Assembly: GCF_026210795.1 (NCBI RefSeq)
Contig: NC_089438.1
Coordinates: 2,315,501 to 2,379,500 of the forward strand
Direction of reading: 5' to 3'
Length of the DNA: 64,000 bases
Origin: Rhizophagus irregularis
Lineage: Eukaryota; Glomeromycota; Glomeromycetes; Glomerales; Glomeraceae
Positions 31,780 through 62,175 of the stretch are shown here, one piece after another; within the stretch, counting starts at the first letter, position 1; each line of letters opens with the position of its first letter. The notes below the pieces were generated by a model, which saw nothing but the letters and a program-made list of their open reading frames with translations, was not told the origin of the DNA and did no database searches. The position numbers and the translations under genes are program-made.

Positions 31780-33640
31780 TCTTCACTGTTCCATTTCCTT
31801 TCTCTTCCCCATTTTCATTCTTTCCCTTTCACTTTTACACGTTCTTTTCCTTTCTCTTTCACCTGTTCTTTCGATTTCACTTTTATTCTCACTCACTCTT
31901 TCAGTTTCCTTTATTCATTAAACGCTTTAACGAAACGTCTTCGGTAGGTTTAAGACTTTAATTTTCTTTTTTGTTTTTTTTTAACGAATTGTTTCTAACA
32001 GTTTGATTTTTTCTTTTTGTAGAAGGGCTTGGTTATTGGATATGAGTTTGGCGAGGGTATTAAAGTTTCGAAGTTAAAATTTGAATACTTCAACAAAAAA
32101 AAGTTATACTAACGTTTTTTATTTCTATTTTGTAGTCGTCCGATTTTTGACTGAGACGAACGAGAGGTTACGCTGGTACGTTTTCGAAAAAAAAAATTGA
32201 AAACTTTCTTTTTAAAAAAAATGGTAGCTAACATTTTATTTTATTTCTCTTTTGTAGGAACTTGGCCAAATATCGATTTCGGACTCACACATGGGTAGTT
32301 TTCGAAATAATTCGAAAATTTTGTCTTAAAAAAATTAAAAAAATGTTTTTATTTCTATTATGTAGGAATCCGTTTTTGGTATATTTGGACGTGTGAAAAT
32401 TCGGTAAAGGTTACTTATATTAATTCTTTTAACGAAACGATTATTAACATTTTGTTTATTCTTTTATTTTTTTGCTTAATTTATTTATTTAACGAAACTT
32501 TTTACTAACGTATTGATATATCTTTTATTTTTTAGGGCGGTCAGGTTTCCCTTATCGTCCTTCCCTTTCCTTTTCGTCCTTCCTTTCCTTTTCATTCTCC
32601 CCTTTTTCTCACACCTTCTTCCACCTCTTTTTCTTGGAAGTAATGTAAGTTTCGTTTTGAAACTTACATATTTTTTTTAATTTTCTTTTATTTTATCCTT
32701 TTTTTTTTAAATTTAAGAAATGAATTAACGTTTCTTTATCATTATTTTTTTTGTAGGATGCCGGCTTGGTCATGAAACCAGACTTTAAGGTAAAAAACGA
32801 GAAAGAGAAGAAGGGATAAAGTAAAGAAACGAACTAACGTTTCTTTTTGTTATTTTTTTTTGTAGAACGCGTAGGAGGATGCCGGCTTGTTCACGAAACT
32901 GGACTTTAAAGTAAAAAATGTGAAAAGAGAATGGGATTTAGAACCAAGATTCTTAAGAATCTTGGTTTTTATTTTTTTTTAATATTTCGGAACAGTTACT
33001 AACCGTTCCTTTCTTTTTTTTATAGGTTCAGTGGATTTCTGATGAATGGATGAACCAAGATACGAATCTTAGTTTATTTATTTATTTTTTTTTATTATTA
33101 TGGAACGATTACTAATAACCATTCCTTTTTTTTTTAAGTTTCGGGTAGGCTTCCTGGTTCCGAAGAACGAAAAAAAACCAAGATTCGTAAGTATATTTAC
33201 GAATCTTGAATTTGTTTTTTTATTTTTTTTTAAACAATATATTATGAACGGTTACTAATAACTGTTCTTTTCATTTTTTTATAGGTTCGGCCGTTCGGGT
33301 GAGTTACCAAAGAACGGAAAAAACTAAGATTCTGTACTATAAATCTTAGATTTTTTTTCTTTTTTTTCAATATTTTAGAACGGTTATTACTAACTGTTCT
33401 TTTCTTTTTTTTTATAGGTTCGGTGTCTCAGGTGGGCTTTCGAAGAATGGAAAACCAAAAGATTCGTAAGGTACGGTACGAATCTTTACTTTTTTTTTTA
33501 TTTTTTATTATTACAAACGGTTTACTAACCGTTCTTGTATTTTTTTTTTATAGGTTCAGGTGGGCTTCAGACAAATGAAGGAACCAAGATTCGTACTTTG
33601 TGATTTGTTCTTTTTTTGTTTTTAACAAATTTAACAACTT
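31780..33640 (+). repeat. Array of 12 or more intron-like units (array II)
   Basis: A pyrimidine-rich leader (31785-31920) is followed by units of ~110-150 bp. Acceptor-like TTTTGTAG/TTTATAG sites end at 32022, 32135, 32257, 32365, 32535, 32756, 32865, 33025, 33138, 33284, 33418 and 33553. Mini-exons of 30-50 nt follow, several sharing GGTTCGG and ending AAGATTC. Donors such as GTAAGTA, GTAAGG and GTACGT follow. In the last units the donor lies in a hairpin (AAGATTCGTAAG...ACGAATCTT) and the branch motif in another (AACGGTTTACTAACCGTT). Mini-exon lengths are not multiples of three, so a protein is unlikely. It may be a spliced non-coding transcript or a satellite that mimics introns. Confidence 0.6.
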
Positions 33641-36724: not shown

Positions 36725-37600
36725 AAAAAATATACTTTGAACAATGGCAAGAAAAGTTCGACCGAATTTTTCTTGTTATTGTTAATCGATTGCTTTAAAA
36801 AAAACAATTATATACTTTGAACAATGGCAAGAAAAATTGGAGCGAATTTTTCTTGCCATTGTTTAATCAATTGCTTTAAAAAAAACAATAATAGACTTGA
36901 GTTAAACAATGGCAAGAAATGTTCGAGCGAATTTTTCTTGCCATTGTTTAATCAATTACTTTAAAAAAAAACAATGGTATACTTTGAACAATAGCAAGAA
37001 AAGTTCAAGCAAATTTTTCTTACCATGGTTTAATCAATTGCTTTAAATAAACAATGATATACTTTGAACAATAGCAAGAAAAGTTCGCGTAAATTTTTCT
37101 TGCCATTATTTAATCAATTGCTTTAAAAAAAAACAATGATATACTTTGAACAATAGCAAGAAAGTTCGAGCGAATTTTTCTTGCCATTATTTAATCAATT
37201 GCTTTAAAAAAAAACAATGATATACTTTGAACAATAGCAAGAAAGTTCGAGCAAATTTTTCTTGCCATTGTTTAATCAATTGCTTTAAAAAAAAACAATG
37301 ATATACTTTGAACAATAGCAAGAAAGTTCGAGCAAATTTTTCTTGCCATTATTTAATCAATTGCTTTAAAAAAAAACAATGATATACTTTGAACAATAGC
37401 AAGAAAGTTCGAGCAAATTTTTCTTGCCATTGTTTAATCAATTGCTTTAAAAAAAAACAATGATATACTTCAAACAATGGCAAGAAAAGTTTGAGCGAAT
37501 TTTTCTTGCCATTGTTTAATCAATTACTTTAAATAAATGATATACTTCGAACAATAGCAAGAAAAGTTTGAGCGAATTTTTCTTGATACTGCTTAATTTT
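36725..37600. repeat. ~80 bp palindromic satellite S1, block 2
   Basis: About eleven units with the same GGCAAGAAAA...TTTTCTTGCC arms and CAATTGCTTTAAAAAA spacer as block 1. It continues into the related TACTGCTTAATTTTTAAATT palindromic unit to about 37830. Confidence 0.9.
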
Positions 37601-38070: not shown

Positions 38071-41000
38071 TTATTTTTTCTTGGTTTTCTTTTTATTGTT
38101 CTTATTACTGGTACTAACAACCCCACTGGCACTACGATTGACCTCTTCTTTATTAATGGCCATAGGTCTTCTACGCAGGCTTCGTCCGTCTAATGTAATA
38201 AATAAGAAAAAATATTAGAAGTTATTTTATTTAAATTAATTAATTATAAAAAATTTTTTTACTTGTAATTTTACTTGTAACTTTCAATCGTTTGTTGTTT
38301 AAATCCTCTATTAATAGAAAAAAAAAATACATTTAATTATTTTTATTTAAATTAAAATATAATCATTTTATAAAAAAAAAATTTTACTTTTCATAGGTTC
38401 TCCGGTTCATTTTTTTGCTAAATAATAAAAAAAATGAATCACAAACATTAATCACAAACATTAAATTAAGTCATTTCCTATGGTTGATTTGTTACAATAT
38501 AATTATACCTAAAGTTGCCTGCCGAAATTAGGGAGTTTCGGCATGTCGAAATTGTTGAAACTATTTCGACATTTTGACATTGGCTCTCTGATTTGCCGAA
38601 ATGCCGAAATAGTTTCGACATGTTGAAATTGTCGAAACCTAAAAATATTACGTTTCACGTAATAACTTGGCATCCAATGATCGTAGAAAGATGCACCATA
38701 GCTCGTTGGAATCGTCTCATAACGACGAGTCGAATGGTGGTTAGATCGTCTTTCTACGATCACTGGATGCCGAGATATTTAACAAAACGTCAAAAATCGG
38801 CATTTTGTATTTTGCGATACTGCGCCGTTTTACGTTTCACATAATAACTCGGCATCCAATGATCGTAGAAAGATGCACCATAGCTCGTTAGAATAGTCTC
38901 ATAACGACGAGTCGAATGGTGGTTAGATCGTCTTTCTACGATCACTAGATGCCGAGATATTGAGCAAAACGTCAAAAATCGGCATTTTGTATTTTGCGAT
39001 ACTGCGCCGTTTGATTGCTCACATAATAACTCGGCATCCAATGATCGTAGAAAGATGCACCATAGCTCGTTGGAATCGTCTCATAACGACGAGTCGAATG
39101 GTGGTTAGATCGTCTTTCTACGATCACTAGATGCCGAGATATTAAGCGAAACGTCAAAAATCGGCATTTTGTATTTTGCGATACTGCGCCGTTTGACGTT
39201 TCACATAATAACTCGGCATCCAATAAGATGCACCATAGCTCGTTGGAATCGTCTCATAACGACGAGTCGAATGGTGGTTAAATCATCTTTCTACGTTCAC
39301 TAGATGCCGAGATATTTAACGAAACGTCAAAAATCGGCATTTTGTATTTTGCGATACTGCGCCGTTTGACGTTTCGCCTATTATCTCGGCATCCAGTGAT
39401 CATAAAAAGATGATTTAATTACCATTCGACTCGTCGTTATGAGACGATTCCAACGAGCTATGGTGCATCTTTCTACGATCATTGGATGCCGAGTTATTAT
39501 GTGAAACGTCAAACGGCGCAGTATCGCAAAATACAAAATGCCGATTTTTGACGTTTCGTTAAATATCTCGGCATCTAGTAATCGTAGAAAGACGATCTAA
39601 CCACCATTCGACTCGTCGTTATGAGACGATTCCAACGAGCTATGGCGCATCTTTCTACGATCATTGGATGCCGAGTTATTACGTGAAACGTAATATTTTT
39701 AGGTTTCGACAATTTCGACATGTTGAAACTATTTCAGCATTTCGGCATTTCGACAGGTTTTAGTTTCGACATTTCGACAATGGCCTGTAGAGTTTCGGCA
39801 GGCAACTTTAATTATACCTTGATCTTCGTCTTCAACATCATTTTCTTCATTTCTATTTCGGATTTCTTCGTTTCCTTCAATTCTGATTATTACAGTTCTA
39901 ATCTTCTCTTCTTGTTCTTCATTCCTAACTTCCTCTTCTTCTTCTTTTTGTTCTTCATTTCTAATTTCTTCCTCTTCCTCTTCTTCTTGTTCTTTATTTC
40001 TAATTTCTTCCTTTTTTTCTTCTTCTTGTTCTTTATTTCTAACTTCTTCCTTTTCCTCTTCTTCTTGTTCCTTATTTCTAACTTCTTCCTCTTCCTCTAT
40101 TTCTTGTTCCTTATTTCTAACTTCTTCCTTTTCTTCTTGTTCCTCATTTCTAACTTCTTCTTCTTCCTCGTCTTGATTCCTTTTCTTAAAATATCCGTTT
40201 CTATTCTTGGCTTTATGATCGTCTTTCATTAATATAAATTAAATATAAATTAGATTTTTGATCTTTTTTTTTTTAAAAAAAAAAAAGAAAAAAAACAAAT
40301 ATACTCACGAACATGTTGGACAAGTTTTTTTAACAATTCATACGCAAACCAATCATTAAAGCCGAACGGTATATGTAAGTCTTTCGTTCTTAATTTTAAC
40401 TAAGAAAAGGTTATTATTTCATTATATTTATAAAAAAAAATTTATAAAACAAATAAAAATTACCTTTTCGATTATTTTGAATAAAATGTTTTTAGGAATG
40501 TCTTTATAGGCATAATTGTATTCAAGCTGATAATCAGCGCATATGCGCATTGCAGCCTAGTTTTATTGATTATTAAAGTCTTGTTTTGTATAACCAAATT
40601 ATTTATGTATATACGCATTACACATGTCGTATTTACTTCATTCGAAATATTTAACACATTTAACATATCAGCTTTTGAAATATACTTCTTTTTTGGCTTT
40701 TGTATAAAACTATGTGTCTTTTAATGATATATTTAAAAAATAAATAAATAACTTAAATAATTAAATACAGTAATAATAATAAGGGCTTACAATAACAGAA
40801 GTTATGGACGACGACGTGGAGGGTGGCGTCTTTCGCTGTGAATGATGTGGAAGGGCTTACAGCAACAGAAGTTATAGACGACGACGTGGAGGTTCTTCGC
40901 GTACTCGCTGTGAATGACGTGGAGGGTCTTCACGTACTCGCTGTGGAGGAAGGTCTTTGGAAACTTAACGCTGTGGAAGGTCTATTATAACTTGTTATTG

Positions 41001-44171: not shown

Positions 44172-44399
44172 GTATCATCTTTATGGAATTATATAATAAC
44201 ACAGGTCGAACAGATGTCATTGTCGCAAAATTTGCCTGGAATTTTTCTGGCAAATTGAGAATTATCCCAGTAAATTGGGGTAAATTGTATTACAATTTTG
44301 GGATAATGGAGGACTTACAATTTGGCAAATTTTGTCAAAATGGCGGAATTCCTACAGAATTTCTAATTCAAATGTTGAGAAATTTTTCAGTAAATTATC

Positions 44400-44770
44400 A
44401 TTAATTGTGGGAAATTTTAGGTAAATTTTTAGTAATTTTATGTAAATTGTAGTGAATTTAGTCAAATTTTTAGTAATTTTATGTAAACGTAATGTGAATT
44501 TAGTCAAATTTTTAGTAATTTTATGTAAACGTAATGCAAATTGTGGTGAATTTAGTCAAATTTTTAGTAATTTTATGTAAACGTATTGTAAATTGTGTAA
44601 ATTTTAGGCAAATTTTTAGTAATTTTATGTAAACGTAATGCAAATTGTAGTGAATTTAGTCAAATTTTTAGTAATTTTATGTAAACGTAATGCAAATTGT
44701 GGTGAATTTAGTCAAATTTTTAGTAATTTTATGCAAACGTAATGCAAATTGTGGTAAATTGTAGTGTATT
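44400..44770. repeat. ~52 bp subterminal tandem repeat
   Basis: Six or seven units of GTGAATTTAGTCAAATTTTT, AGTAATTTTATGTAAACGTA and ATGCAAATT. Related words (GTGCAAACGTAATACAAATT) recur at 54205-54240. Confidence 0.8.
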
Positions 44771-44779
44771 TTTAGTAAT

Positions 44780-45215
44780 CATCAGGAAATTTTATAGCGC
44801 GAAAAATTGCGTAAGTTTACGATTTTGTAAGTTTACGAAAGTTTATGGCATAATATTTCGAAAAATTTCAAAATATTACGTAAGTTTACAATTTCGTAAG
44901 ATTTATGTGATATTACGGTTAAAATATTACGTAAGTTTTCAATATCGTAAGATTTACGCAATATTACGGTCAAAATATTCTGCAAATTTACGAAACTGTA
45001 AACCTGCGTAATATTACGGTTGAAATATTTTGAAAATTTACGAAACTGTAAACCTGCGTAATATAACGGTTGAAATATTTCAAAAATTTACGAAACTGTA
45101 AACCTGCGTAATATTACGGTTAAAATATTTCGAAAATTTACGAAACTGTAAACCTGCGTAATATTACGGTTGAAATATTTCGAAAATTTACGAGATTGTA
45201 AACTGCATATGCAGT
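44780..45215. repeat. ~60 bp ATTACG-rich tandem repeat
   Basis: Units carry GTAATATTACGGTTGAAATA, TTTCGAAAATTTACGAAACT and GTAAACCTGC. The partner block of similar words is at 53680-54130 near the other side of the Plavaka-like transposon. Confidence 0.75.
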
Positions 45216-45574
45216 AGAACGTATACAAGGGGCATGTGATACTATTGAATAATCAAAAATAATATAAACACCTTTTCTTTTATATAAACACCTTTTTTTT
45301 TAAGTTTGGGAAAGCAAATTTATTTTTATTTACGAATTTTTTATTATTTACAATTTTTATGTTAAAAATTAAAGTAAATTCTAATTTTTATTATAACTTA
45401 ATAAAAAAATACACATTTGATACTTGTTCGCTACTATTTTATAAAATAGTACCCAGGCTGTACGGCGTGAACGTCAGTATCAGTCACAGCCCAAAAAACG
45501 TGAGTCTCCAGCCGATATTTGGTACGGACTGGGCCTAGCTACTCACTTAATAAATAATAAAAAAATAAAAATAA

Positions 45575-46200
45575 TTATCTTCTTCTACGATACGTAGGTA
45601 AGTTTCTCCTTGCCCTACGATCATCACGCGTGACTAAAATTGATCAAATTTATCAAATTTAAAACATGAACGTAAATATTAATTATAAATTTTATTATAG
45701 TATAATTACCCAGCCTCTCCCAAAATCTCGTTCTAAATTCGCGATAATATCTTGCGCCGGTACGCGTCCACAGCCACCGCCCAGAGTTACCATTACGATA
45801 AAGGACATAGTTCTAAATATCAAAATCAGTTTGAATATTCGGTAAATACATTTAATTTATATGAATGTAATGTTATTTATTTACTTACATGGTAATCCCT
45901 GACGAGGTTCCTCCACTTTTGGCTGCACTGTTGCCCGGAAACCCTCGTTCGAAATATTCTATTTATTCTGATTCAATTAAATGGATTGGTTAATTTGAAT
46001 TTAAATTCTTTCTTAAAGAAATTATAGATATTAGTCATATGAACCTATTGGCAACAAAGTCCCAAAAATCTTGGCAGCTTCTACCATTAATATTGTGGTA
46101 GGCGTGGTTTCTGTCTCGGCGTATGTCAACAAGTTCGTCCATCATAGCCCAGTTCCAATGGACGTTATAGTGGGAATGACGACATGTGTGGCGAGGCATT
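45575..46200 (-). pseudogene. Myb/SANT-like DNA-binding protein, four exons, one break
   Basis: Exons on the minus strand: 46200-46045, 45967-45889, 45812-45710, 45633-45575, all GT-AG with matching phase from exon 1's end onward. The product reads DELVDIRRDRNHAYHNINGR, SCQDFWDFVANR, INRIFRTRVSGQQCSQKWRN, LVRDYH, a tryptophan/arginine-rich exon (GRWLWTRTGARYYREFRTRF) and a basic tail. The spacing of W and L residues fits the three-helix Myb/SANT-like fold found in trihelix proteins and in the partner protein of PIF/Harbinger transposons. The segment is GC-rich compared with its neighbours. Within exon 1 the frame from ATG 46200 (MPRHTCRHSHYNVHWNW) loses phase by one base at GGG near 46139. 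Read in the later frame instead, a TGA precedes WDELVD. No Harbinger nuclease lies nearby. Confidence 0.55.
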
Positions 46201-46209
46201 ATTAGTAAT

Positions 46210-46717
46210 TTGATTTTGGGATGAGTAAAAATTTGAAAGAAAGTCGTAAAATGTCACTTTAAATAAAATTTGAACAATACCTCTTTGGTTTGATTTTATT
46301 TCTCGTTTCAATTAAAATTTAATTTATTAGACTTTTCATCATTAAACATATTAATTAAATCTCATGCGGATATGGATTATCTAAATATAAATATCATGAT
46401 TCTAAATATAAATATAAATCACTTAATTTATTTTAATTTTTTTTTAAAAAAAAAATCTTAGTTTGATTTCAATTAAAAATAATTAAAAATCATGTACATG
46501 TTTTGGTTATTTAAATATAAATATCAATATATTATATTTAAAAATAAACCAATTTATTATTAGCACATTCTATTGAATTTTAAAAAAATCAATTTTTTTT
46601 TTAAAAAAAAATCATCAATATATCATATTTAAAAATAAAACAATTATATTCTGATTAAATATTTTGCGTACATTTCTTAAAAAAATCATAAAAAAAAAAT
46701 CTTGTACGTCGTACATG
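46210..46717. other. AT-rich spacer, no gene
   Basis: Homopolymer runs and AAATATAAATAT words; nothing coding. It ends at the left border of the second Plavaka-like transposon. Confidence 0.5.
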
Positions 46718-46918
46718 CAATTACTAAATATCATCCCCTTGTGATAAATAAAAAATTACGCAACACAAATTCAACACAAACTCAACACAAATTTAACAAA
46801 TTTAACGAAATTTGGCCAAAATTAATAATTTTTTACCAAAATTATCAACACAAATTGAACACAAATTGAACACAAATTTCAGTCACGATTTATTTATGTC
46901 ACACCCATGTTGTTAATA
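46718..46918. repeat. Left terminal inverted repeat of copy 2
   Basis: It pairs with 52611-52795. Shared blocks in order: ATTACTAAATATCATCCCCT, TGTGATAAAT, AACACAAATT repeats, CGAAATTTGGCCAAAATTA, CACGATTTATTTATGTCACA. The repeated AACACAAATT words are candidate binding sites. Confidence 0.85.
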
Positions 46919-47024
46919 ATTAAATAAATAAATCTGCATTTTATTTATGATATGGGAAACGTGACCATAAATTCTTTAAGGATATAATTTTATTAAAATA
47001 AATTAAAACTCCTATATCAAGTGA

Positions 47025-49993
47025 CTAAAAAATATATTTATTTACAAAATATTCATTTTGTTTATCAAATCGGGGTACTATGTGAACGACACCATGTATA
47101 GACTCTATAGCTACAAAGTTATATAATTCTATCAATTTTAAGTGAGGACATCCATATAAATATGGGTTCCTTTTAGATTTAAAATCGTACCATTGAATTA
47201 ATGCGAGATTTAGCGGTGGGTCTGTTAATACTTCTGCTAACAATAAGGCCTATAAATAATAAATATTTATTAATACTTTATAATAAATTATTACATAAAT
47301 TGAAAAAATACCTGTCCATAACAAAGTCCTTTGTCTGATATATAATCATTTGATTCTTCAGAATCCATTGAAATAGCTATGTCGCTAAACCATACTTTAT
47401 TATGATACCTGTTTGTGGCACGCATTATGGCACCATTTTCCAGTGTTACCGATCCGTATATGTTTATTCGGGTTTCACCAATAATTGTGAACCCATCAAG
47501 TAAATCTAGATATGAATCCAGACAACTTATAAATCTAGCAAAACCGGTCTGCATTTTATTGTCTACGGAATCTTTTTTTTCATTAAAAAATGTATTTGCA
47601 TCTTGTAAAGAGAAATCAAAGAGTCTTGCAGAAAATTTACAAGTGCGAGGTGTTTTTGCCAGATTCACTGAATGTTGAGACATTCTAATAGATATTGCTT
47701 GACGTTTTATCTATTAATTTAATTTCCATCTTAAGTTATATAATAAATATATACAATAAATAAATTTCCAAATACTTACAGTTCGTAAAAGCTGAAGTTC
47801 GACATCTTTTTTATTGCTAATTCGGTAGGGTATTTTAACGAAATATTTGTGGAGACTTTCGTAAGTTTCTGTGGTATAGCCATTTATTGCGCCATAAGAT
47901 TGTATTGAGTCAATAATGTGATAAACCCATGAATGCAATTTAGGCAACTTCAAATTGGAAGGAGAAACAAATTTAAAAGCCTTGACAAACATCCGCGCCC
48001 ATCTATGTATTGCATCCTAAAATTTAAATGTTAATTTAATTTATTTAATTTAAATTTTCGATTTTACTAAAATTTTAATACATACATTAAATTTCTCCAA
48101 GTCACTTTCACTAAATTCTTCATATTTACTTAAAATATACATTTCATTCCAATATTCGTACAATTTCACAAGATTATCATTATTTACAAAATTATCTACT
48201 TCGTTATTATTTTCATCATATAAATTATCAATAACAAATATCATGACTTTCATCAAACTTCGATATTCATTAGCAGTTAATCTTGCAATTGACTGCAGTT
48301 TATTGGAAAAAATTTTAATGGCGGGAAAACGTGGAATTGCTGCTAGACGGCGATCTACTTCTTCAACTAATTTATTACCATTAACATGTTGCAATTTTAA
48401 GATATCGCACGTGAAGATAATTTGATAACGAAATAAACCCAAATCTAAATGATGCATTCTGTCAGGAACAGTAGCCAAGTAGATATTTATATTCCTTGAT
48501 AATATAAATATTTATAATTAATATATATATATGTTATTATAATTATTTCTACTTTTGCATACTTACGGCAAATTCCAAAAAAAATTAGGTACAGATTCTA
48601 TGCAAACAGATTTTTGTGTATCATTTTCAAAATATTTACGCATTTCATCATGAGTTCTTAGTATTACATCATTAACTGATAAGTTTATATTTGCAAGATT
48701 GTCCCTTTTAATTAAACAGGAGTGACATGGAAGGCTTGAATTGGAGGATTTATAAACTAAACAAAAACTTGCGGCTTCTGGCCAATCTGCAATAATAGTT
48801 GAAACTCTAGGATAAAACCAGGTATTTTCATTATTTATAAAAAGGTCTATACCATCTTTTAATAAAATAATAGGTTCTAGTAAATGACGTAAAGATTTAT
48901 GAAAGGTATCACGAACCAGATCTTTATTTGCAGCTTCTAAAATTGGTAAATATCCCAAAAGTTGCTTTGCATCCTGTTTATTACGACGCCATATTGGGAT
49001 ATTGCCTAATGAAATATATATTGGATGCAATTGACTTTTTCCTAATGTATCTGTAGTTGTTGCATCTGAATATAAAATAATTGATAATAATTTGGAACCA
49101 GTAGGTAAGGATTCTTGCGTAGTTTTCCACCATTTTCCAGTGTTTTGTTCACTGTAAATACTTTCTCTATTATACTATAAAATAATATAAATAAATTAAA
49201 ATAAATATTATTTAAATTATTGAATTAACTAATATTTACTATTTACCTCATAGTTTTCGTAAGATAGCGCAAAATTTTGTGTTATGTCAGAAACAGTTAA
49301 GATATTTTTGATGCACTGTATTAAGTTTTGATAATAAAGAAAATAATCTTTATCCTTATGTTTTGTTATAAGAACTTTACTAAATTCTAAATTAGAAAAC
49401 TTCATATTATTCATAAATGCTCGTCCCTGTTCAATATTTTTTGGTAATGGTGATTCTGTAAAATTTGAATGTTTATTAAAAAAATGTATTATTTCATTAC
49501 CACCTTTATTGTTTATTTTATATTTCGTTACTAATAACATTAGATCTTTATAAGCATCATTAGGAAATTCTGTGCAAGTTTTGGTATTGAGATTTTTGGG
49601 TTCTTCAAAAATTTCAGGCTTTTCAGATGAATCTAATATATTTTCAAAGTTACTATCTTCAAGGCTCATCTCTGATATTGCACTTCCAATACTGTCAAAT
49701 GACATATTTTGTACATTATTATCATCATCCACCTAAAATTATAAACCAAAATGAGTTAGTATAATTTGAGCTTTTTCTTTAAAAAGAATAATCTGGAATA
49801 ACATAATTACTTCAACTTTATCATTTTCATATTCACTACTTAGATTACTTCTTGTATCCATTTCACTGCTATATTTTTTACTATTATTATTATTATCATT
49901 ATCTTCTACTTCTACTTCTACATTTTTTAAGCATTTTTGGGCGTGTTGAGTATATGCAAAGCGTTGACTGAATATTCGCATACAAAGGGGCAT
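47025..49993 (-). CDS. Plavaka-type transposase, copy 2, intact
   Basis: Seven exons on the minus strand give an uninterrupted 848-residue protein: 49993-49811, 49732-49247, 49174-48567, 48494-48086, 48016-47780, 47710-47312, 47249-47025. Exon borders fall at the same protein positions as in copy 1, except that copy 2 has one extra intron near the start and lacks one before YGAINGYTTETYESLHKY. The core has LLSIILYSDATTTDTLGKSQ, HPIYISLGNIPIWRR, LLGYLP, CHSC and PDRMHHLDLGLFRYQ. FPNDAYKDLMLLV matches the N-terminal block. The N-terminal finger is C-x12-H-x3-C from the start (LCMRIFSQRFAYTQHAQKC), with Met-Pro where a first Cys would be. So either the finger lacks a ligand or translation starts further upstream. 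Copies 1 and 2 are clearly different families. Confidence 0.88.
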
Positions 49994-51103
49994 TTGAAAC
50001 TCATGTTACTAAATTAACGCGTCAAATTTGATGAAAAGTATCAATTCACTATTTAATTTATATGAGATTATGTGTGCTAATAAAATTATATTGCAAATTC
50101 ATTGTAAAAATTTAATGAATTAATTGAATGGATTACAATTGATTGAGTTATTTGAATAGACACGACTACGCAAATTTACGCATTAATGAATGGAACTGGC
50201 TGTAAGAATCTGGTGGCTAATATCGCGGAATCATTCGCAATTTTACGCATTATAGCAAAATTAAAATATGCGAAACACTCAGCAATTTTGCTGTCGGGAA
50301 CTTGCCGAGTTTGTGGGTTGGCAAATCTAAAAATAAATGTAACAAGTCTATGATGTACCATATAAATATTGTTTATTATTTTATTTACTATTTCAATTTG
50401 CCGGCAACCTGCCAAGTGAATCTGACAGCAAAAGTGCTGAGTGTTTCGCATATTTTGAATTTGCTGTAACGGGCTGTAAGAATTCGGATGGCTTATTCAA
50501 TCGGCTAATCATCTGATAATCAGCCGCAAATTTATTGGCTTAACACGGCAAATCACTTTTACAATAATGGACGGATGATCAGCCACAAATTTATGCGATA
50601 ATCAGGTTATAAGCGCTCAAGATCACTATCAATCTGATCAGCCAAATGAGTTCACTGGCTGCAACTTTTTTTTTCCATGCATAAAAGCCCCAACATGTGT
50701 AACATGTTATTTTTTTATAAATTAGATTTGATTAATATTTCGATTGTACTATGTGCTTTTACGAGAGTTTTTTTTTAAAGTTCTCTTATGAAAGTGTTAC
50801 AATATTTTTTCGTAATATCACGATGCAAAATTTTTGCATTAGTACATTCATTTTTCGTAATATTTCGCATTAGTTCATCCATTTTTCGCAATATTTCGCA
50901 AGTTTTTTTCTTTTTTAGTATCGAATGGCGGAAATTACCTTATGACAGCTTGCCTCCTTTTTCTGAATTTCTGATTCATGTATTTCCCCCTTTTTCCTCA
51001 TCCTTTTCGAATTTTCTAGTTCACCTTTTTCTCATATATTTCCTCTTTTTTCTCATATATTTCCTCCTTTTTCTCATATTTTCGTTTCAAATTTATTATC
51101 ATA
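49994..51103. promoter_or_regulatory. Divergent intergenic region of copy 2
   Basis: 1.1 kb between the two start codons, holding a fold-back MITE (50251-50468) and CTGGCTGTAAGAAT / CGGGCTGTAAGAATTCGG repeats on either side of it. 50880-51080 is pyrimidine-rich with CCTTTTTCTCATATATTTCC repeats just before the partner gene. No CDS. Confidence 0.5.
50251..50468. mobile_element. Fold-back MITE (218 bp)
   Basis: The inverted arms TATAGCAAAATTAAAATATG and CGAAACACTCAGCAATTTTG on the left have their complement at 50424-50468. No clear duplication was seen. It lies between the promoters of the two transposon genes. Confidence 0.65.
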
Positions 51104-52521
51104 ATGGCTACAAAGCGTGGCGAGAAACGAAGAATTGATGATAATGAAAGATTTTCAAAACGTAGTACTGAGGGTAGCGAAGCTGAGAAGCGAGTGAGAA
51201 TATCCGATGATAGTGTTGATGGTATATATGACATAATATGTATCATATTCTTTATAAAAGAAATTATATAATATATAGTTAAATTATATTTTATTGTTAA
51301 AGTTAATAAAAAAACAATAGAAAAACTATTAAGAACCAATTCACAGATAATTTCTAAGCTTGAAGTTCTTATCACCGGACAAAAAAATCTCGAAACCCGT
51401 CTCTCGAGCATAGAAAAAAAGCTCAACGATAATAACAAAAATAATAATAATACAATAGATCCGGAGTATGTAAAGGTAATAAAGATGAATATTATTTAAT
51501 GTAAACCTGAAATGCTAACCTCGTTTGATTAGGAGCTCGTTAAGAAGGTGTCGAAAATTTTATTTGAAAATTTTGTTTATCCTTCGCAAGACGAGTACAA
51601 ACTCGCTACCGAAAAATATTTAAAAGACGAAAATCCGGAATTTATGCGCCAGTTCAAAAAAAATCAATGGATTATTTTTTTCGAAAAAAAAATTGCCCTG
51701 ACTGTAAGTTAAAGCAATTATGAATTTTATTAAATTTCATACTAACATTTTTTTTTAATAGTTAGTACAACAACATAGAAGCATACGAGGGACGTTTACG
51801 TCTAGAGTTAAAGACGTTATGTATTCTGTTTTCGAAGCGACTGGGCATAAATTACCGTCTATTAACACTCAGGCTAGTCCGTCAAAGATTCAGGAATGGA
51901 AGAGTAAGGCGGAGGTGAAAAGATGTTACAACAACCTATTTAAAAAGGTTAAAGATGGGCAACCTACGACATATATGTCGCTGATAATTGATAAGTTGCG
52001 AAAAGAAAATAAAAATCCCTCAAAAACACAAATAGCGTATGCGATTAGCATATGTGAAATGTACTTAAATCCTAATAATCAAAACATTCAAATGAGCGAA
52101 AGTATAATGAAGTTGAAGATAATCAACAACTTAGTAAGTTTTTAATTTACAATTTGCAAAATGTGAATTATTTGAATTACAGTTTATTTATTTATTTATT
52201 GATTTTTAGCAAAAGTTGGAAAATAGGGATAAATTTACACATTCGGACGATGATTCTCATGATGGTAATGATGTAGATGATGGTGGTGATAGAGCAGCTG
52301 ACGATAGAGCAGGTGCGGCTGATGATGGTGTGACTAACGATGGTAGGCCTAACGATGGTGTGGCTAACGATGATGCGGCCAACAATGGTGCGGCCAACGA
52401 TGGTGCGGCCAATGATGGCATAGCTAACGATGATATACTTTCTATTGACTCTTATAACACGGAGGAGGAAGGTCGGTATGTAAATAGTTTATTAGAAAAT
52501 TATGGGTTGCATAGGAAATAA
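51104..52521 (+). CDS. Second gene of Plavaka-like element, copy 2, intact
   Basis: Five exons (51104-51221, 51303-51475, 51533-51703, 51762-52133, 52210-52521), all GT-AG with consistent phase, encode 381 residues. The N terminus is basic (MATKRGEKRRIDDNERFSKR). Residues ~40-90 form a coiled coil (IEKLLRTNSQIISKLEVLIT, LETRLSSIEKKL). Exons 3-4 hold the part conserved with copy 1: VYPSQDEYKLATEKYLKD, then MYSVFEATGHKLPSI, SPSKIQEWK and YAISICEMYLNPN. The C terminus is an acidic D/N/A-rich repeat (GAANDGAANDG). I recognise no named domain. Basic, coiled-coil and acidic regions with conservation beside a transposase suggest an accessory DNA-binding or regulatory protein, comparable in role to TNPA of En/Spm (inference). 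Confidence 0.8.
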
Positions 52522-52610
52522 ATATTATTTTTTATATATATCACACGTAATAGCATTTTTTTTTACCATAATTAATATAGTTTTAATAAATAAAATGGTT
52601 ATTAATTCTT

Positions 52611-52795
52611 AACAACACGGGTGTGACATAAATAAATCGTGGCTGAAATTTGTGTTCAATTTGTGTTCAATTTGTGTTGATAATTCTGGTAAAAATTTGT
52701 TAATTTTGGCCAAATTTCGTTAAATTTGTTAAATTTGTGTTGAATTTGTGTTGATAATTTTTAATTTATCACGAGGGGATAATATTTAGTAATTG
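52611..52795. repeat. Right terminal inverted repeat of copy 2
   Basis: Inverted counterpart of 46718-46918 with few differences. It carries TTTGTGTTCAATTTGTGTTG repeats and ends GGGGATAATATTTAGTAATTG. Confidence 0.85.
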
Positions 52796-52799
52796 TGCA

Positions 52800-53640
52800 T
52801 ATACAATTTCTGTGATTTTTTAAAATGCGGATTTCCGTAATTTTACGATATCGTATTTTCTGGCCAATCAAAATTAGGCTGATCCTTGCATGTGATTTAA
52901 TCATTTAATCATTTAATCATGCACGCGTTTTTGTCTTATTTATTTTTGTTTCTTATTTCTTTATTCTTTTGTTCAATATTTTTAATTTTTTTGTCTCTTC
53001 TTTCTATTATTTCTTTAATTATATACAATATATTTACATATATTTCATAATTTATTGCTTTGCAGGTATAGAAATATTTGTTTATTAATACTAATTATTT
53101 TCATTTTTTTACCTCTTTGTTATTTTGTATCGTAATACTAACAATAATATCCATGTTTCCTTTATTCCTTTTTACTTGTACTTTAATACTAACAATACTA
53201 ACAATACTAACAATATGTTTATTTTTTCCTTTCTCTTTATTTCTTTATTCTTTTGTTCAATTACTTTGCAGGTATAGAAATATTTATTTATTAATACTAA
53301 TTATTTTAATATTAACGCATTTTTTTACCTCTTTGTTACTTTATGTCGTAATACTAACAATACTATCTACGTTTCCTTTATTTCTTTTTACTTGTACTTT
53401 AATACTAACGATAATATCCATGTTTCTTTTACTCCTTTTACTGTTTCTTTAACTCTTTTTACCTTAATACTAACAATAATAACAATATTTCTTTTATCTT
53501 TATATCTAATACTAACGTTACTATAGCTGTTTCTCTTCTTTTTACGTCTAATAATATTGTTACTCTACTCTTTCTTTTTTTACTTTTATGTATTCTGTAT
53601 ATATTAATAAATACTTGTAATTTTTTATGATTATATCTAA
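52800..53640. other. AT-rich, T-rich spacer with repeated ACTAACAATA words
   Basis: 52980-53580 has many TTTCTTTATTCTTTTGTTCA and AATACTAACAATACTAAC words and a duplicated TTTGCAGGTATAGAAATATT (53062, 53268). One hydrophobic open frame of 124 codons exists here (53078-53452), but its composition follows the repeat, so I do not call it a gene. Confidence 0.5.
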
Positions 53641-53679
53641 TAAAACATACATTATATAAACTTATAGTACAGAAAATGA

Positions 53680-54500
53680 AGTATTATTTATCGAAATATT
53701 TTGAAATATTACGAAATATTAAGTTGTGTAAAATCACAGAATATTACGAATCATCAAATTATGGAACATTACGCATCATAGAATTTCAAAATATTTTAAA
53801 AAGTTGCGAAGTATTACGCAGTAAAATTACGGAATATTACGAATCGTAAAATTATGAAGCCTTGCATACAGTAATATTTCGAAATATTTTAAAAAGTTAC
53901 AAAATATTACGCTTACGCAAACTTGCGGTGGGTCTGAAAACTTACGAAATATTATGTAAAATTACGAAATATTGCGAACCGCAAAATTACGGAATATTAC
54001 AAATCGTAAAATTACGAAGCTTTGCATATCGTAATATTTCGAAATATTTTAAAAAGTTACAAAATATTACGCTTACGCAAACTTGCGGCGGGTCTGGAAG
54101 CTTACGAAATATTATGATGTGTAAACTTGCGCAACTTTTCGCACTATATAATTTCCTGATGATGTTATATAAATTGTTGAAAATTTAGGTGAATTTTTCA
54201 GCAATGTTGTGCAAACGTAATACAAATTGTGGAAAATTGTGGTGAATTTTGCATTTTTTCGGTAAATGTTAGCTAAACTTTTGATAATTTAGTGAAATTT
54301 AGGATAATTTTGGACAATTGAGTGAAAAATGTTTTACTGATTTTGTACAATTGAGTGTAAACAGTATAAACGCAACATTTTCGGAGACAATTTAGTGAAA
54401 TTTTGCAATAATTTCGGACAATTGAGTGAAATTTTGCAATAATTTCGGACAATTGAGTGAAATTTAGTAATAATTTTAAACAATTTAGTGCAAATACCAT
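53680..54500. repeat. Subterminal-type AT-rich repeats
   Basis: 53680-54130 has GAAATATTACGAAATATT and a duplicated TACGCTTACGCAAACTTGCG. 54200-54500 has ATTTCGGACAATTGAGTGAA units. They resemble 44400-45215 and may be the matching inner zone of the 15 kb unit. Confidence 0.6.
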
Positions 54501-54689
54501 GACAATTTAAAACACTGGTTTAATAATTTTACATAATTTATTACAATATTATTTATTAACAAATGCACAATTATTATTTAACGATAAGAATCTATATTAA
54601 TCTATATTCATCAGATATCCAATGATCCATGGGTAATCCGCACATCTAATTCATTCATATATCTCCGATGCCAAAGTAGAAGCTGGTGA

Positions 54690-56400
54690 AAACCTACAAA
54701 AAAGAAAGTAAAGAAACGTTAGTTAACGTTTCTTAAAAAAAAATTAATAAAAATTAAGTTTCACAACCAATGTTGCGAAACTCACCGGTTCGTTTTGATT
54801 TCCATTATCCAAACGTCCGAAACCTACAAAAAGTAAAAAAAAAACGTTAGGTAATAATGTTTCTTTTAAAAAAAAAGAACAAAAATTAAGTTTCGCAATG
54901 TAACATTGCGAAACTTACCGGTCATTTCATTCATTCTAACGTCCGGAACCTACAAAGTAAAAAGAACGTTAGTTAACGTTTCTTTTAATAAAAAAAAAAC
55001 AAAAATTAAGTTTCGCAATGTAACATTGCAAAACTTACCGGTCATCTCATTCATTCTAACGTCCAGAACCTACAAAAAGTAAAAAAGAAACGTTAATATA
55101 AACGTTTCTTTTAATAAAAAAAAAACAAAAATTAAGTTTCGCAATGTAACATTGCGAAACTTACCGGTCATCTCATTCATTCTAACGTCCAGAACCTACA
55201 AAAGTAAAAAAGAAACGTTAATATAAACGTTTCTTTTAATAAAAACAAAATTAAGTTTCGCAATGTAACATTGCGAAACTTACCGGTCGTTTCATTCATT
55301 CTAACGTCCGGAACCTACAAAAAGTAAAAAAGAAATGTTAGTTAACGTTTCTTTTAATAAAAAAAAAACAAAAATTAAGTTTCGCAATGTAACATTGCGA
55401 AACTTACCAGTCGTTTCATTCATTCTAACATCTGGAACCTACAAAAAGTAAAAAAAAACGTTAATATAAACGTTTCTTTTAAAAAAAAAGAGTAAAAATT
55501 AAGTTTCGCAACACAATGTTACGAAACTTACCAGTTCGTTTTGATTTCCATTATCTAAACGTCCGGAACCTACAAAAATTAAAAGAAAGAAACGTTTAGT
55601 ATCGTTTCTTTAAAAAAAATTAATAAAAATTGTTTCGCAACATAATGTTGCGAAACTTACCAGTTTGTTTCGAAGTTCATTATTCAAACGTCCGGAATCT
55701 ACAAAAATTAAAAGAAAGAAACGTTTAGTATCGTTTCTTTAAAAAAAAATAATTAAAAAAATAAGTTTCGCAATACAATATTGCAAAACTCACCGGTTCG
55801 TTTCGATTTCCATTATCCAAACGTCCGGAACCTACAAAAAGTAAAAGAAACGTACATTAGTATCGTTTCTTTAAAAAAAAATATAATTAAAATTAAGTTT
55901 CGCAACAATTGTTGCGAAACTTACCGGTTCATTTCGAGTTTCAAACGTCCGAACCTACAAAAAAAGAAAGAAACGTTAGTTAACGTTTCTTTTAATAAAA
56001 AAATTAATAAATTAAGTTTCGCAACGATTCATTGCGAAACTCACCGGTTCGTTTCATCCAAACGTCTGGAACCTACAAAAGAAGGAAAGAAACGTTAGTT
56101 AACGTTTCTTTTAATAAAAAAAAAATTTTTAAAAAAAGAAAATATTACCTTCCTCGCAAAGTCCGGGTCGTAATTTCGTCCGGCGTTCCTACAAAAAGAA
56201 GAAAGGAAACGTTAGAAACGTTTCCTAAAAGAAATTAAAAAAAGTAAGTTTCGAACACGAAACTTACCATTTCACTTTCCGAAGTCAAGACCTACACAAA
56301 AGAAAAATAGGAAACGTTAGAAACGTTTCCTTACAAAAAAGAATTAAAAAAAATTTTTTTTAAAAAAAAGTTTCGAAGCAAACGCTTCGAAACTTACCAT
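54690..56400 (-). repeat. Array of 14 intron-like units (array III)
   Basis: Read on the minus strand, each ~120 bp unit has a mini-exon of 28-38 nt (GTTCCGGACGTTTGGATAAT... or GTTCTGGACGTTAGAATGAA...). Next comes a donor GTAAGTTTC or GTGAGTTTC, then a hairpin that starts inside the donor (AAGTTTCGCAATG / CATTGCGAAACTT). A second hairpin holds CTAAC (GAAACGTTAACTAACGTTTC), followed by a T-rich tract and TTTTTGTAG. Fourteen acceptors lie from about 56290 down to 54693. Stem sequences differ between units but stay complementary (AAGTTTCGAAGC/GCTTCGAAACTT in the first). Mini-exon lengths (28, 30, 31, 38) do not keep a frame. A pyrimidine-rich leader precedes the array, as in array II. Confidence 0.7.
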
Positions 56401-56404
56401 TGTT

Positions 56405-56745
56405 TTTCTGAAAGATGGTTCCGGGAAAGGGAAAGGGAATGGGGAAGGAGTGGGGATCAAAAAGAGAAGGGAAAGGACGGAGGGGAGAAAGGGAGAAAAA
56501 GAAGCGAAGGTGAAGGTGAGAGAAAGAGGGAAGGAGAAAAAAGAGGGAAGGGGAAGGTGAGAGAAAGAGGAAAGGTGAAGGTGAAAGAAAGAGGGAAGGG
56601 AAGAAAAAAGAGGGAAGGGGAAGGTGAGAGAAAGAGGAAAGGTGAAGGTGAAAGAAAGAGGGAAGGGAAGATGAGAGAAAGGGGAAGGAGAAGGGCGAAA
56701 GAAAGGAGAGGTAAAGGCCGTGAGAAAAAAAAAAATTAAGCTTTT
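56405..56745 (-). repeat. Pyrimidine-rich leader of array III
   Basis: On the minus strand CTCACCTTCCCCTTCCCTCT-type sequence runs for over 300 bp, with a ~75 bp duplication. It precedes the first intron-like unit, as the CTTTCCCTTTCAC tract does in array II. The open frames on both strands here arise from low complexity. Confidence 0.7.
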
Positions 56746-56756
56746 GCTAAAAAAGC

Positions 56757-57073
56757 TTACCGTATATAGCGGGCCACAGTACTCCGGGTATCTTGCAAAA
56801 ATTAGGGGTTTGACCCTGTACCCCCGGGTACTAAACAAAGCCTAAAAATTCCATTTTTTGCGAATATCTCACGATCTACCGGTCCAATTTGAACGATCTT
56901 TTTTTATTTTGAAGAGCTCAATGAGAGCTATCAAACAAAAAAATGATGGCTCAAATCTGATCACTAGATCACGAGATAATTGTAAAATATCCCCCCGGGT
57001 ACTATACAATTCTATGAAATTTTTCAAGGAGGTACTATGCATAGGGGGGTACTATGGCCCGCGATATATGGTA
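56757..57073. mobile_element. TIR element of 317 bp
   Basis: The ends TTACCGTATATAGCGGGCCA and the complement TGGCCCGCGATATATGGTAA pair over about 30 bp with few differences. CCGGGTACTA words lie inside both ends. The target duplication is not clear. Confidence 0.65.
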
Positions 57074-57243
57074 ATTTTTTTTTTTTTCGTTATACCGCAG
57101 CTGAAGCTGCGGTAATTATAAAGTAATATCACGTGACGCACGTGATATATAATTTTATATAAATAGAGGCTTTCCCCGCCCTGGAATTTTTTTTTTATTT
57201 TAATAATTTTAAATAGATGTATATATATGCTTATATATACATA

Positions 57244-57916
57244 CAGTGGCGGTCAAAAGTATTGCATCGCCTTTTATACTATAAATTACAAATGATAGTT
57301 ATAATAAATTTATATTTATTTTATACCTTGAATCTCAGAGGATATGTTACAATTATTTTTTTGTTCAATTCATAGTAAAATCTTATATAAATTACATAAT
57401 TTACAACAATTTAAATTTTCGACTTTTTATTGGGAATATTTATGATAAAATAAATGCCTGTATATGATTCTTTAAGTAATTTATAATTCGTATTTCAAAA
57501 ATTGTAACAATTGAATCAGTAGTTGTGGAGAAATCGGCCTTTAAAAATCATGAAAAATACTGAAAATCGCCATTTTACATATGTGTAACCTTAATTTTTA
57601 CCGATTTTTAAAGCTAATTTCTCCATAACTACTGGCTCAACCATTACAATTTTTGGAATATGAACTATATATCACTTAAGGAATCAAATTCTGGCATTTA
57701 TTTTGTCGTAGCTATTCTCAATAAAAAGTCAAAAATTCACATTTTTGTAAATTATGTAATTTATATAAGATTTCACTATGAATTGGACGAAAAAATAATT
57801 GCAATATATTCTTTAAGATTCAAGCTTTAAAATAAATATAAATTTATTATAATCATCATTGTAATTCATGTTGTAAATTTAGGTCAAAAGTGATGCAATA
57901 CTTTTGACCGCCACTG
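57244..57916. mobile_element. Tc1/mariner-type fold-back MITE (673 bp)
   Basis: The ends CAGTGGCGGTCAAAAGTATT and its complement are flanked by TA on both sides (57242-57243, 57917-57918). CAGTG...TA is the Tc1/mariner signature, and this end matches Tc1-like consensus words. The two halves are inverted repeats of one another along nearly the whole length. No transposase. Confidence 0.9.
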
Positions 57917-57934
57917 TATATATATATCTATTAA

Positions 57935-58090
57935 CTAATACTTTACGAAAAGCCCCTCCTCTGTAAACAGGTAGAGGCCATAAAGTACCTATAGGGGGAG
58001 AGCCATTGCTGCTCCCTCCGCCTGTTTATAGTGACAAAAAGAGGGAGTCTTCAGTAGTAAGGTTTAGTACTAAATTAAACATCACAACAC
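57935..58090. other. Structured GC-rich stretch, possible small RNA or SINE remnant
   Basis: CTGTAAACAGG and CCTGTTTATAG can pair, as can GGGGGAG and CTCCCTC, and ACTTTA...TAAAGT. It is followed by GACAAAAAGAGGGAGTCTTC, shared with 19432-19450. No A/B box pair or tRNA fold was found. Confidence 0.35.
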
Positions 58091-58229
58091 ATCGTGTTGA
58101 TACATTGTTTATATTAACAATGTGATTTAATGTTAAATAATTCATTTAGAATATAAATATTATAAATTTAATAATGTTCGTAATTTACAAATAAATAAAA
58201 ATAAAAATTAACAATTTTAATGTAATTAA

Positions 58230-59254
58230 GTGTAATGCTACGTTATCCAGTGTAATTGTAGTATTTTTTTTGTGTTTTTTAGCACAATTCCACGTTTTTT
58301 AGTGCAATTCCGCATTTTTTAGTGCAATTCCACATTTTCTAGCATAATGTTACATTTTCCAGTATAACGCGAAATTTTCTAAAAAATATAATAATTGTGG
58401 TACTTTTTAGTGTAATGCTACATTGTCTAGTGTAATTGTGGTATTTTTTAGTGCAATGCCGCATAATTTAGTATAGTGCTACATTTTTTAGTATAATTTA
58501 ATGTAATGTGGAATTTTCCAAAAAATGTGATAATTGTGATGCTTTTTAGTGTAATTTGGTGAAATGCTACATTTTCCAGTGTAATGCCATATTATTGAGC
58601 ATTTTCAAAAAAAAAAATGTAACATTTTAACATTCTGACGAAAGTGAAACATTTGACCAAAAAAACATAAAATTTGCTGAAAATATGCAACATTTGACAA
58701 AAAAATATAGAATTTTCATAAAAAAATGCACAATTTGCTAGAAAATTGGAATATTTGACAAAATTTGATTTTAATTGACAATGTTATAACAATTTTATGA
58801 AATGTTGTTACAATGATATCACATTGGAGATAAAATGTGGCATTTTCATAAAAATGCACCATTTGCAAGAAAATCGGAATATTTGACAAAAAAAAAGCAA
58901 AATTAGATTTTAATTGACAATGTTATAACAATGTTATGAAATGTTGTTACAATGATATTACATTGGTGACAAAATGCAGAATTTTCATAAAAATGCACCA
59001 TTTGACAAAAAAAAAGCAAAATTTGATTTAATTGACAATGTTATAACAATGTTACGAAATGTTACATTTGAGGTGTAATGTAGCATTTTCCCAAAATTTC
59101 ATAAGATTTGTTAAATCGGACAATGTTGTAACAATGCTATTCCAAAAAATTGCTCAGCGTAATGTAGCATTTTCCACAATTTCCCACCATTTTCCAGGAA
59201 AATGGGGAATTTGCATTTTTTGAATTTTGGACAATGGTGCCCCTTCGACCTGTG
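58230..59254. repeat. Right inner repeats of the 15 kb unit
   Basis: Irregular units of AGTGTAATGCTACATTTTCC, TTTTTTAGTGCAATTCC, and later GACAATGTTATAACAATGTT (three copies, 58776-59060). AT-rich and without a gene. It leads directly into the CCTGTG end. Confidence 0.6.
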
Positions 59255-60975: not shown

Positions 60976-60979
60976 TAAA

Positions 60980-62175
60980 TATTTCTTTGCCATTGTTTAA
61001 TCAATTGCTTTAAAAATAAACAATGGTATACTTTGAACAATGGCAAAAAAAGTTCGCGCGAACTTTTCTTGCCATTGTTTAATCAATTGCTTTAAAAAAA
61101 ACAATGATATACTTTGAACAATAGTAAGAAGAAAAGTTCAAGCGAATTTTTCTTACCATTGTTTAATCAATTGCTTTAAAAAAAAACAATGGTATATTTT
61201 GAACAATAGCAAGAAAAGTTTGCGCAAATTTTTCTTGTCATTGTTTAATCGATTGCTTTAAAAAAAACAATGGTATGCTTCGAACAATAGCAAGAAAAGT
61301 TCGCGTGAATTTTTCTTGCTATTGTTTAATCAATTGCTTTAAAAAAAACAATAATAGACTTGAGTTAAACAATGGCAAGAAATGTTCGAGCGAATTTTTC
61401 TTGCCATTGTTTAATCAATTACTTTGAAAAAAAAACAATGGTATACTTTGAACAATGGCAAGAAAAGTTCAAGGAAAATTTTCTTGCCATTGTTTAATCA
61501 ATTGCTTTAAAAATAAATAATGATATACTTCGAACAATGGCAAGAAAAATTCGTGCGAATTTTTCTTGCCATTGTTTAATCGATTGCTTTAAAAAAAAAA
61601 CAATAGACTTGAGTTAAACAATAGCAAGAAATGTTTGAGCGAATTTTTCTTGCCATTGTTTAATCAATTACTTTGAAAAAAAAACAATTGTATACTTTGA
61701 ACAATAGCAAGAAAATTTTGAGTGAACTTTTCTTGCCATTGTTTAATCAATTGCTTTAAAAATAAACAATTGTATACTTTGAACAATGGCAAGAAAAATT
61801 CGCTCGAAATTTTCTTACCATTGTTTAATCAATTGCTTTAAAAAAAAACAATGATATACTTCGAACAATAGCAAGAAAAATTCACGCGAATTTTTCTTGC
61901 CATTGTTTAATCGATTGCTTTAAAAAAAACAATAGACTTGAGTTAAACAATGGCAAGAAATGTTTGAGCGAATTTTTCTTGCCATTGTTTAATCAATTAC
62001 TTTGAAAAAAAAACAATTGTATACTTTGAACAATGGCAAGAAAAGTTCGCGCGAATTTTTCTTGTTATTGTTTAATCGATTGCTTTAAAAAAAAACAATG
62101 GTATGCTTCGAACAATAGCAAAAAAAGTTTGAGCGAATTTTTCTTGCCATTATTTAATCAATTGCTTTAAATAAA
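60980..62175. repeat. ~80 bp palindromic satellite S1, block 3
   Basis: About fifteen units, same core as blocks 1 and 2, with alternating spacer forms (CAATGATATACTTTGAA and CAATAGACTTGAGTTAAA). The alternation suggests a higher-order repeat of two or three units. Confidence 0.9.

Follow-up and report, generated by a model that had tools for sequence, protein, structure and literature searches.

A tandem array of hairpin-bearing intron-like units carried by a CACTA-type element in Rhizophagus irregularis

The array, its flanks and its hairpins

The DNA analysed here, referred to as the window, is a stretch of 64,000 nt of Rhizophagus irregularis (contig NC_089438.1, positions 2,315,501 to 2,379,500). 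At 54694–56397, read on the minus strand, it holds a tandem array of 14 intron-like units with splice signals, in agreement with a preliminary description of this DNA. The array consists of 14 GT-AG introns of 76–106 nt and 13 mini-exons of 24–40 nt. The introns lie at 56397–56292, 56267–56189, 56148–56073, 56044–55955 and 55924–55832 (introns 1–5), 55793–55699, 55660–55570, 55531–55439, 55407–55315 and 55283–55196 (introns 6–10), and 55164–55070, 55038–54950, 54918–54824 and 54785–54694 (introns 11–14). The mini-exons measure 24, 40, 28, 30, 38, 38, 38, 31, 31, 31, 31, 31 and 38 nt. The donor is GTRAGT in 13 of the 14 introns, the exception being intron 3 with a weak GTAATA, and all 14 have the U2-type features of GT-AG ends, a branch motif and a pyrimidine tract. 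A typical unit starts with the mini-exon GTTCCGGACGTTAGAATGAATGAAACGACCG, followed by the donor GTAAGTTTCGCAATG, which pairs with CATTGCGAAACTTA. After this donor stem come a T-rich spacer and AAAGAAACGTTAACTAACGTTTCTTT, which forms a second hairpin tipped by CTAAC, and the unit ends with a T tract and TTTTTGTAG. Rfam covariance models gave no match at gathering score in the window, and a tRNA search of the window found no matches.

Upstream of the array lies a putative first exon that is rich in C and T (56398–56724, minus strand). It ends ...AAAAACAATG directly before GTAAGT and is also seen in the loci L001–L003 and other copies. A promoter-like module of CACGTG repeats and a ACCGCAGCTTCAGCTGCGG hairpin, common to many array elements, is located at 57078–57135 on the minus strand, with its final part at 56724–56759 on the far side of a MITE-like insertion; we traced the module by blastn using a hand-made string of 95 nt. 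This insertion (56760–57071) is one of two upstream of the array. Its edge gives a false donor, GGTAAGC at 56760, which we rejected. The other insertion (57244–57916) has the inverted ends CAGTGGCGGTCAAAAGTATTGCATC. In a comparison with L001–L003, both insertions, which separate the promoter-like part from the array, are present in the window copy only, and they may have disabled it. On the downstream side, a putative terminal exon and tail occupy 54490–54693 (minus strand); this segment was used as the query for counting copies.

In predicted folds, the donor is part of a hairpin in 13 of the 14 introns of the window array, the exception being 56148–56073 with its GTAATA donor, and a second hairpin is present upstream of the acceptor in all 14. 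A CTAAC, TTAAC, CTAAT or CTAAA motif is located within or adjoining the loop of the second hairpin. The earlier statement that the splice signals lie within hairpins thus holds for this array. Its stems are ∼9–15 bp long. A stem of at least nine Watson–Crick pairs begun by GTRAGT was found in 12 of 13 cases in the array versus 3 of 49 in the remaining window, both strands included; this comparison needs no gene parser and is cleaner than a count of parsed donors. We also folded 99 introns from the two arrays of the window (the second is described below) and eight related loci, that is, 108 parsed entries minus 9 that were mis-parsed. The mean RNAfold z-score was −5.2, with 90 of the 99 below −2. 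For chaperonin introns of the same genome, the boundaries of which were picked by a script and are approximate and in some cases doubtful, with one of the 18 in the wrong orientation, the mean was −0.14 and 0/18 were below −2; these introns lack the hairpins.

A larger set of 281 introns was parsed from L001–L008, L017–L032 and both window arrays. The parser favoured hairpins and the donor counts are therefore biased towards them: the donor was found at the base of a hairpin arm in 170 introns, at the tip in 36, inside an arm in 25 and in no hairpin in 28. Among control GTs from the same loci only 9/281 were at a hairpin base, as against 170/281 parsed donors. A branch-side hairpin was present in 230 of the 281 introns, and a branch-type motif was at most 6 nt from the loop centre in 175 of these 230.

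The host transposon and related elements in the genome

On sequence evidence, the array is carried by a non-autonomous DNA transposon of the CACTA type on the minus strand. The 5′ and main part of this element, which includes the array, spans 54163–59254 with the 5′ terminal inverted repeat (TIR) CACAGGTCGAAGGGGCACCATTGTCC at 59254. Its 3′ end, composed of tandem repeats and the TIR (CACAGGTCGAACAGATGTCATTGTC on the plus strand at 44200), is found at 44200–44779. The two parts are split by a nested element with matching ends (TATAGTGCGAAAAGTTGCGC) at 44780–54162, also on the minus strand. The outer flanks of both ends of the array element carry TAA as a target site duplication (TSD) of 3 bp, and this element, like L043 and L044, is bounded on either side by the TIR CACAGGTCGAA. 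A Plavaka transposase match at 48563–49174 (minus strand, PF18759, E = 9.4e-25) was rejected as the array element's own transposase, as it belongs to the nested element. A Helitron was considered on the basis of one sharp end and dropped after both TIRs and the 3-bp TSDs had been found.

The window element shares a sharp 5′ end, CACAGGTCGAAGGGGCACCATTGTCC or near, with L043, L044 and L046, all in unrelated flanks. In L043 and L044 the 3′ end is TTCGACCTGTG, the inverse of the start, and the TSDs are TTA and AAT, respectively. Both ends are present in L046, the right one as a variant, and no matching TSD was found. Two further families have other ends. L048 and L049, which share 98% identity over 3.5 kb, have the ends CACTGGTC...GACCAGTG and the TSDs TGA (L048) and GCA (L049). 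L052 and L053 have the ends CACAGGTAAAACG...CGTTCGACTAGTG, with TIRs starting CACAGGT and CACTAGTC, and a TSD, TAT, is seen in L052 and none in L053. Judged from these ends, elements with CACTA-like termini carry three unrelated array families, among them that of the window. In the family of L022, L052 and L053 the introns are shorter, and the mini-exon, GGGAATCGGTTATAACGAATCCCATAG, is close to a palindrome in its own right.

Transposons of the CACTA or CMC-EnSpm type have TIRs beginning with CACTA/CACWR and TSDs of 2–3 bp, and their non-autonomous members are moved by the tnp2-type transposase of an autonomous relative. The array elements resemble them in TIRs that begin CACAGG or CACTGG, in subterminal tandem repeats, in dispersed copies, and in a 3-bp TSD in six of the eight elements with both ends examined (present in the window element, L043, L044, L048, L049 and L052; absent in L046 and L053). 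They differ in that the undisrupted L043 and L044 have no visible transposase and in that the cargo consists of structured introns and non-coding mini-exons. L054 has the TIR, the subterminal part and the promoter-like module of the window element and, beyond these, a fragment of a tnp2-type transposase (PF02992, scoring 33.9 bits against a cut-off of 28.6); nested insertions at this locus make it uncertain whether the two belong together. In L055 a match to PF02992 (tnp2-type) on the other strand scored 21.3 bits, below the same cut-off. Two more arrays, oppositely oriented and built from other exon families, lie at positions 1–2230 of L054 (plus-strand coordinates of the locus), no more than 10 kb from an element with the same TIR.

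We searched 146.7 Mb of the genome on 32 contigs. With up to 3 mismatches allowed, there are 77 occurrences of the 5′ TIR and 0 of the reversed control. The query from the terminal exon and tail gave at least 47 matches at no fewer than 40 places, both numbers being lower bounds. The donor-hairpin pattern was found 223 times (reversed control 0) and the pattern of branch hairpin plus acceptor 393 times (control 0). Among the matches listed on contigs C1–C6, 16 of 22 TIR ends are followed downstream, on their own strand, by an array match at a distance below 6 kb. Conversely, on these contigs 15 of 43 branch-hairpin clusters have a TIR end upstream, as against 0.07 by random placement with a maximum of 2 in 2000 draws, and for the remaining 28 of the 43 no such TIR lies within 6 kb.

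Short exons alternate in runs with short introns in L001–L008 (L004 in part), L017, L019, L022, L024, L025, L026 and L028, and at these loci the array families are very unlike one another in the sequences of their exons and stems. Introns with GTRAGTTT donors number 8–16 per copy, as far as copies were fetched. Two of five arbitrary 8-kb pieces hold an array (L058 and, with few hairpins, L057), and the window itself has two. As a rough guess, several percent of the genome consists of such arrays, and they could contain more introns than the protein genes.

The second array of the window (31945–33560, plus strand) has the same layout and an unrelated sequence. In several of its introns a hairpin extends across the exon–intron boundary with the donor at its tip (CCAAGATTC followed by GTAAGTATATTTACGAATCTTG), and a C/T-rich stretch with a AATTAAGCTTTTTTAAGCTTAAATT hairpin is located upstream. 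No TIR with a TSD was found around this array. Both the transposon setting and this second array add to what the preliminary description had found.

Hairpin-rich repeats seem to be common in this region. The window has tandem arrays of palindromic units that lack splice signals at 6104–9149, 9451–10099, 11120–11724, 36730–37585 and 60977–62175. An inverted repeat with 383-nt arms of 94% complementarity is located at 38594–39747, where it overlaps a tandem array of 182 nt.

Stem pairing, divergence and coding capacity

The preliminary description held that the stems vary between units and still keep their pairing, and our alignments bear this out. In an alignment of 19 introns we counted 34 double-change cells versus 10.0 after shuffling, a number reached in 0 of 500 shuffles, and 13 of 25 pairs had changed on both sides. 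A larger alignment gave 344 double-change cells versus 97.9, with 22 of 25 pairs changed on both sides; its 148 distinct rows, from the best 150 of 327 model matches, had been fitted to the structure beforehand. Between ten copies of the window element, 83 two-sided stem changes were found, compared with 7.9 expected under independence, and 83/83 are Watson–Crick pairs; these were counted over ordered pairs of related copies, so the events are not independent. Covariation beyond shared ancestry, the check proposed earlier, is thus only half upheld: the excess and its consistent pairing speak for it, whereas the counts are dependent, whole-unit exchange could produce them, and one-sided changes have little preference for G-U (see below).

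This bears on the possibility that the arrays are a satellite resembling introns, that is, DNA repeats inside transposons whose palindromes would be made and kept by foldback replication or by conversion between arms or units, with no splicing now. We regard this as unlikely. In its favour, the window has many tandem arrays of palindromes that lack splice signals, and the two-sided changes described above fit copying as well as selection. The one-sided changes are near symmetric, with 204 to G-U and 166 to A-C between copies, or 52 and 38 when distinct hairpins are counted. RNA folding tolerates G-U and rejects A-C, and the near-equal counts therefore make DNA-level palindrome copying or exchange of whole units possible; as proof of selection at the RNA level, the asymmetry is too weak. 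With CpG included, stem divergence in the ten copies (0.034–0.067) is close to that of the spacer (0.041). Stem mismatches amount to 4.0–4.4% in the intron hairpins versus 9–16% in the five splice-free hairpin arrays of the window, which may be of other ages, and this difference is in favour of a constraint on pairing. A satellite is further at odds with the donor, branch-type motif, T tract and acceptor, which keep their order and orientation across families with unrelated stems, and with splice signals that diverge less than the remainder.

The latter is seen when non-CpG sites of the ten copies are compared: divergence is 0.8% at the acceptor, 1.4% at the donor, 3.0% in the remaining intron and 4.8% in the exons. 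Counting G only, donor and acceptor are at 1.9% each, the remaining intron at 8.0% and the exons at 7.1%. The splice-site rates are underestimated by up to twofold, as units were counted only where the reference copy is intact, and they are still the lowest when corrected. When CpG is included, the divergence of the exons ranks second, below the loop of the branch hairpin only. This pattern is the reverse of that of a protein gene and is the trace that selection for splicing, as opposed to selection for a product, would leave.

The mini-exons keep no reading frame, as had been noted before: their lengths, 24–40 nt, are irregular, and when they are joined all three frames contain stop codons. 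A gene with micro-exons, e.g., for an effector with one repeat per exon, must nevertheless be weighed, because repeated short exons are found here in a fungus with repeat effectors (PMC11333574). In a test of 20 loci, whose exon chains contain some parsing errors (in L002 and L003, for example, exons were fused or left out), the longest open frame was better than in shuffled letters at p < 0.05 in four loci (L002, L003, L008, L027) and better than in permuted exon orders at p < 0.05 in none. Exon lengths fall over all remainders, and only 18 of the 167 exon indels among the ten copies are multiples of three, 149 being frame-shifting. Exons diverge more than introns, and a Pfam search with four spliced frames gave no match. 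With the frame, indel and permutation tests all pointing away from it, we consider a coding gene highly improbable.

Among the three interpretations offered in the preliminary description, a multi-intron non-coding transcript is thus the best supported, as judged from splice signals that diverge slowest, exons that are among the fastest and indels that are blind to frame. A retro-copied version of such a spliced RNA was sought with one exon–exon junction as the query (29 nt from two joined mini-exons, with up to 3 mismatches allowed), which is absent genome-wide; a single pair makes this a weak test.

Relation to known systems and proposed mechanism

The second interpretation offered earlier, an element that generates introns, is not supported. 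Introners are repetitive, near-identical introns of the spliceosomal type, some families of which have TSDs and TIRs (PMC9860276), and introner-like elements of fungi have inverted repeats (PMC8469720). If the array introns were of this kind, each would be a mobile element inserting into transcribed DNA. They do resemble introners in being near-identical, of spliceosomal type, present in many copies and provided with inverted repeats. An introner, however, is a single intron inserted in a gene and is itself the element (PMC9860276), whereas here a transposon holds many introns in tandem, duplicated together with their exons. We picked ten matches to the branch-hairpin pattern for standing alone among the listed matches; seven of them turned out to be arrays, six by at least 4 model matches and L036 by eye, and two (L038 and L042) had no model match at E 0.001. 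A covariance model built from 19 introns found no match in eight chaperonin loci (29,145 bases, E up to 0.1). In L034, at 374–794, a lone hairpin intron lies directly 5′ of a mitochondrial-carrier exon (PF00153, E = 7.3e-12), possibly a unit in, or a capture of, an ordinary gene. The check for isolated units inside genes, suggested earlier, thus yields one candidate among the ten, and an introner-like origin of the arrays as a whole appears very improbable to us.

Internally symmetrical stwintrons of the Hypoxylaceae are likewise symmetrical, hairpin-forming fungal introns that proliferate. They are nested twins with terminal inverted repeats of 45–55 nt that occupy new gene positions without flanking duplications (PMC8469720); the array introns, in contrast, have two separate short hairpins each and stand in tandem. 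The arrays share inverted repeats with introner-like elements and stwintrons but not the defining habit of inserting singly into genes. Among the effector genes of R. irregularis, those of the SP7-like family are similar in their tandem short repeats and their location in repeat-rich parts of the genome. They encode proteins with a signal peptide and 6–11 repeats (PMC11333574), whereas the arrays keep no frame. Membership in the SP7-like family was rejected, as no open reading frame with hydrophilic repeats is present in the arrays.

The many hairpins per unit could also supply the RNA-silencing machinery, making the array a precursor of small RNAs. Stems of ∼9–15 bp, as in the window array, are short for Dicer, and the lowest divergence is found at the splice signals and not in the stems. 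Hairpin loci for small RNAs are reported from fungi (PMC9757828). We consider such a precursor improbable here.

Taken together, with its transposon setting, its anatomy, its pairing kept through change, its slowly diverging splice signals and its lack of a frame, the array is probably a non-coding transcription unit with many introns, borne by a transposon, multiplied by tandem duplication and selected for splicing. That it is transcribed and spliced is what we infer from these features. The array would be the internal transcription unit of the non-autonomous CACTA-type element, in which the promoter-like module and the C/T-rich first exon would lead to the 14 intron units. The units would have been born by tandem duplication of one exon–intron unit, in numbers that vary between copies as the array grows and shrinks. 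The introns, resembling ordinary U2-type spliceosomal introns, would keep their splice signals while the joined mini-exons code for nothing. Each intron would be folded into two compact stems, a local hairpin containing the donor and a second one tipped by the branch site, and the hairpins probably compact the intron and fix the places of donor and branch site.

Why continual splicing would profit the element is a guess to which we give little credence: the transcript might, for example, be held by the spliceosome and be poorly reachable by small-RNA silencing. A parallel comes from nuclear RNAi in Caenorhabditis elegans, where the helicase Aquarius is needed for spliced and not for intron-less targets (PMC5554785), and by analogy an intron-dense transcript might resist silencing. 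This intron barrier offers a possible gain from dense introns; it concerns spliced targets in a nematode and is an analogy here. More tentatively than the transcription unit itself, we suggest that the arrays may represent a new class, a selfish, non-coding, many-intron unit borne by CACTA elements, whose hairpins present the donor and the branch site and whose perpetual splicing is its function, e.g., as a shield against small RNAs. Our searches of the open-licence literature of PubMed Central turned up no account of such arrays.

If the arrays are spliced, they would provide hundreds of natural introns with hairpins at their splice sites, a ready experiment on RNA structure in splicing. They would also represent a transposon that has introns as its cargo and is not itself an intron, and would be informative about the ways in which transposons face or evade silencing by small RNAs. 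In R. irregularis, transposon expression is higher in colonised roots (PMC11075540), and about one third of the genome was counted as unclassified repeats (PMC8647823). Arrays of the kind described here may account for part of these unclassified repeats.
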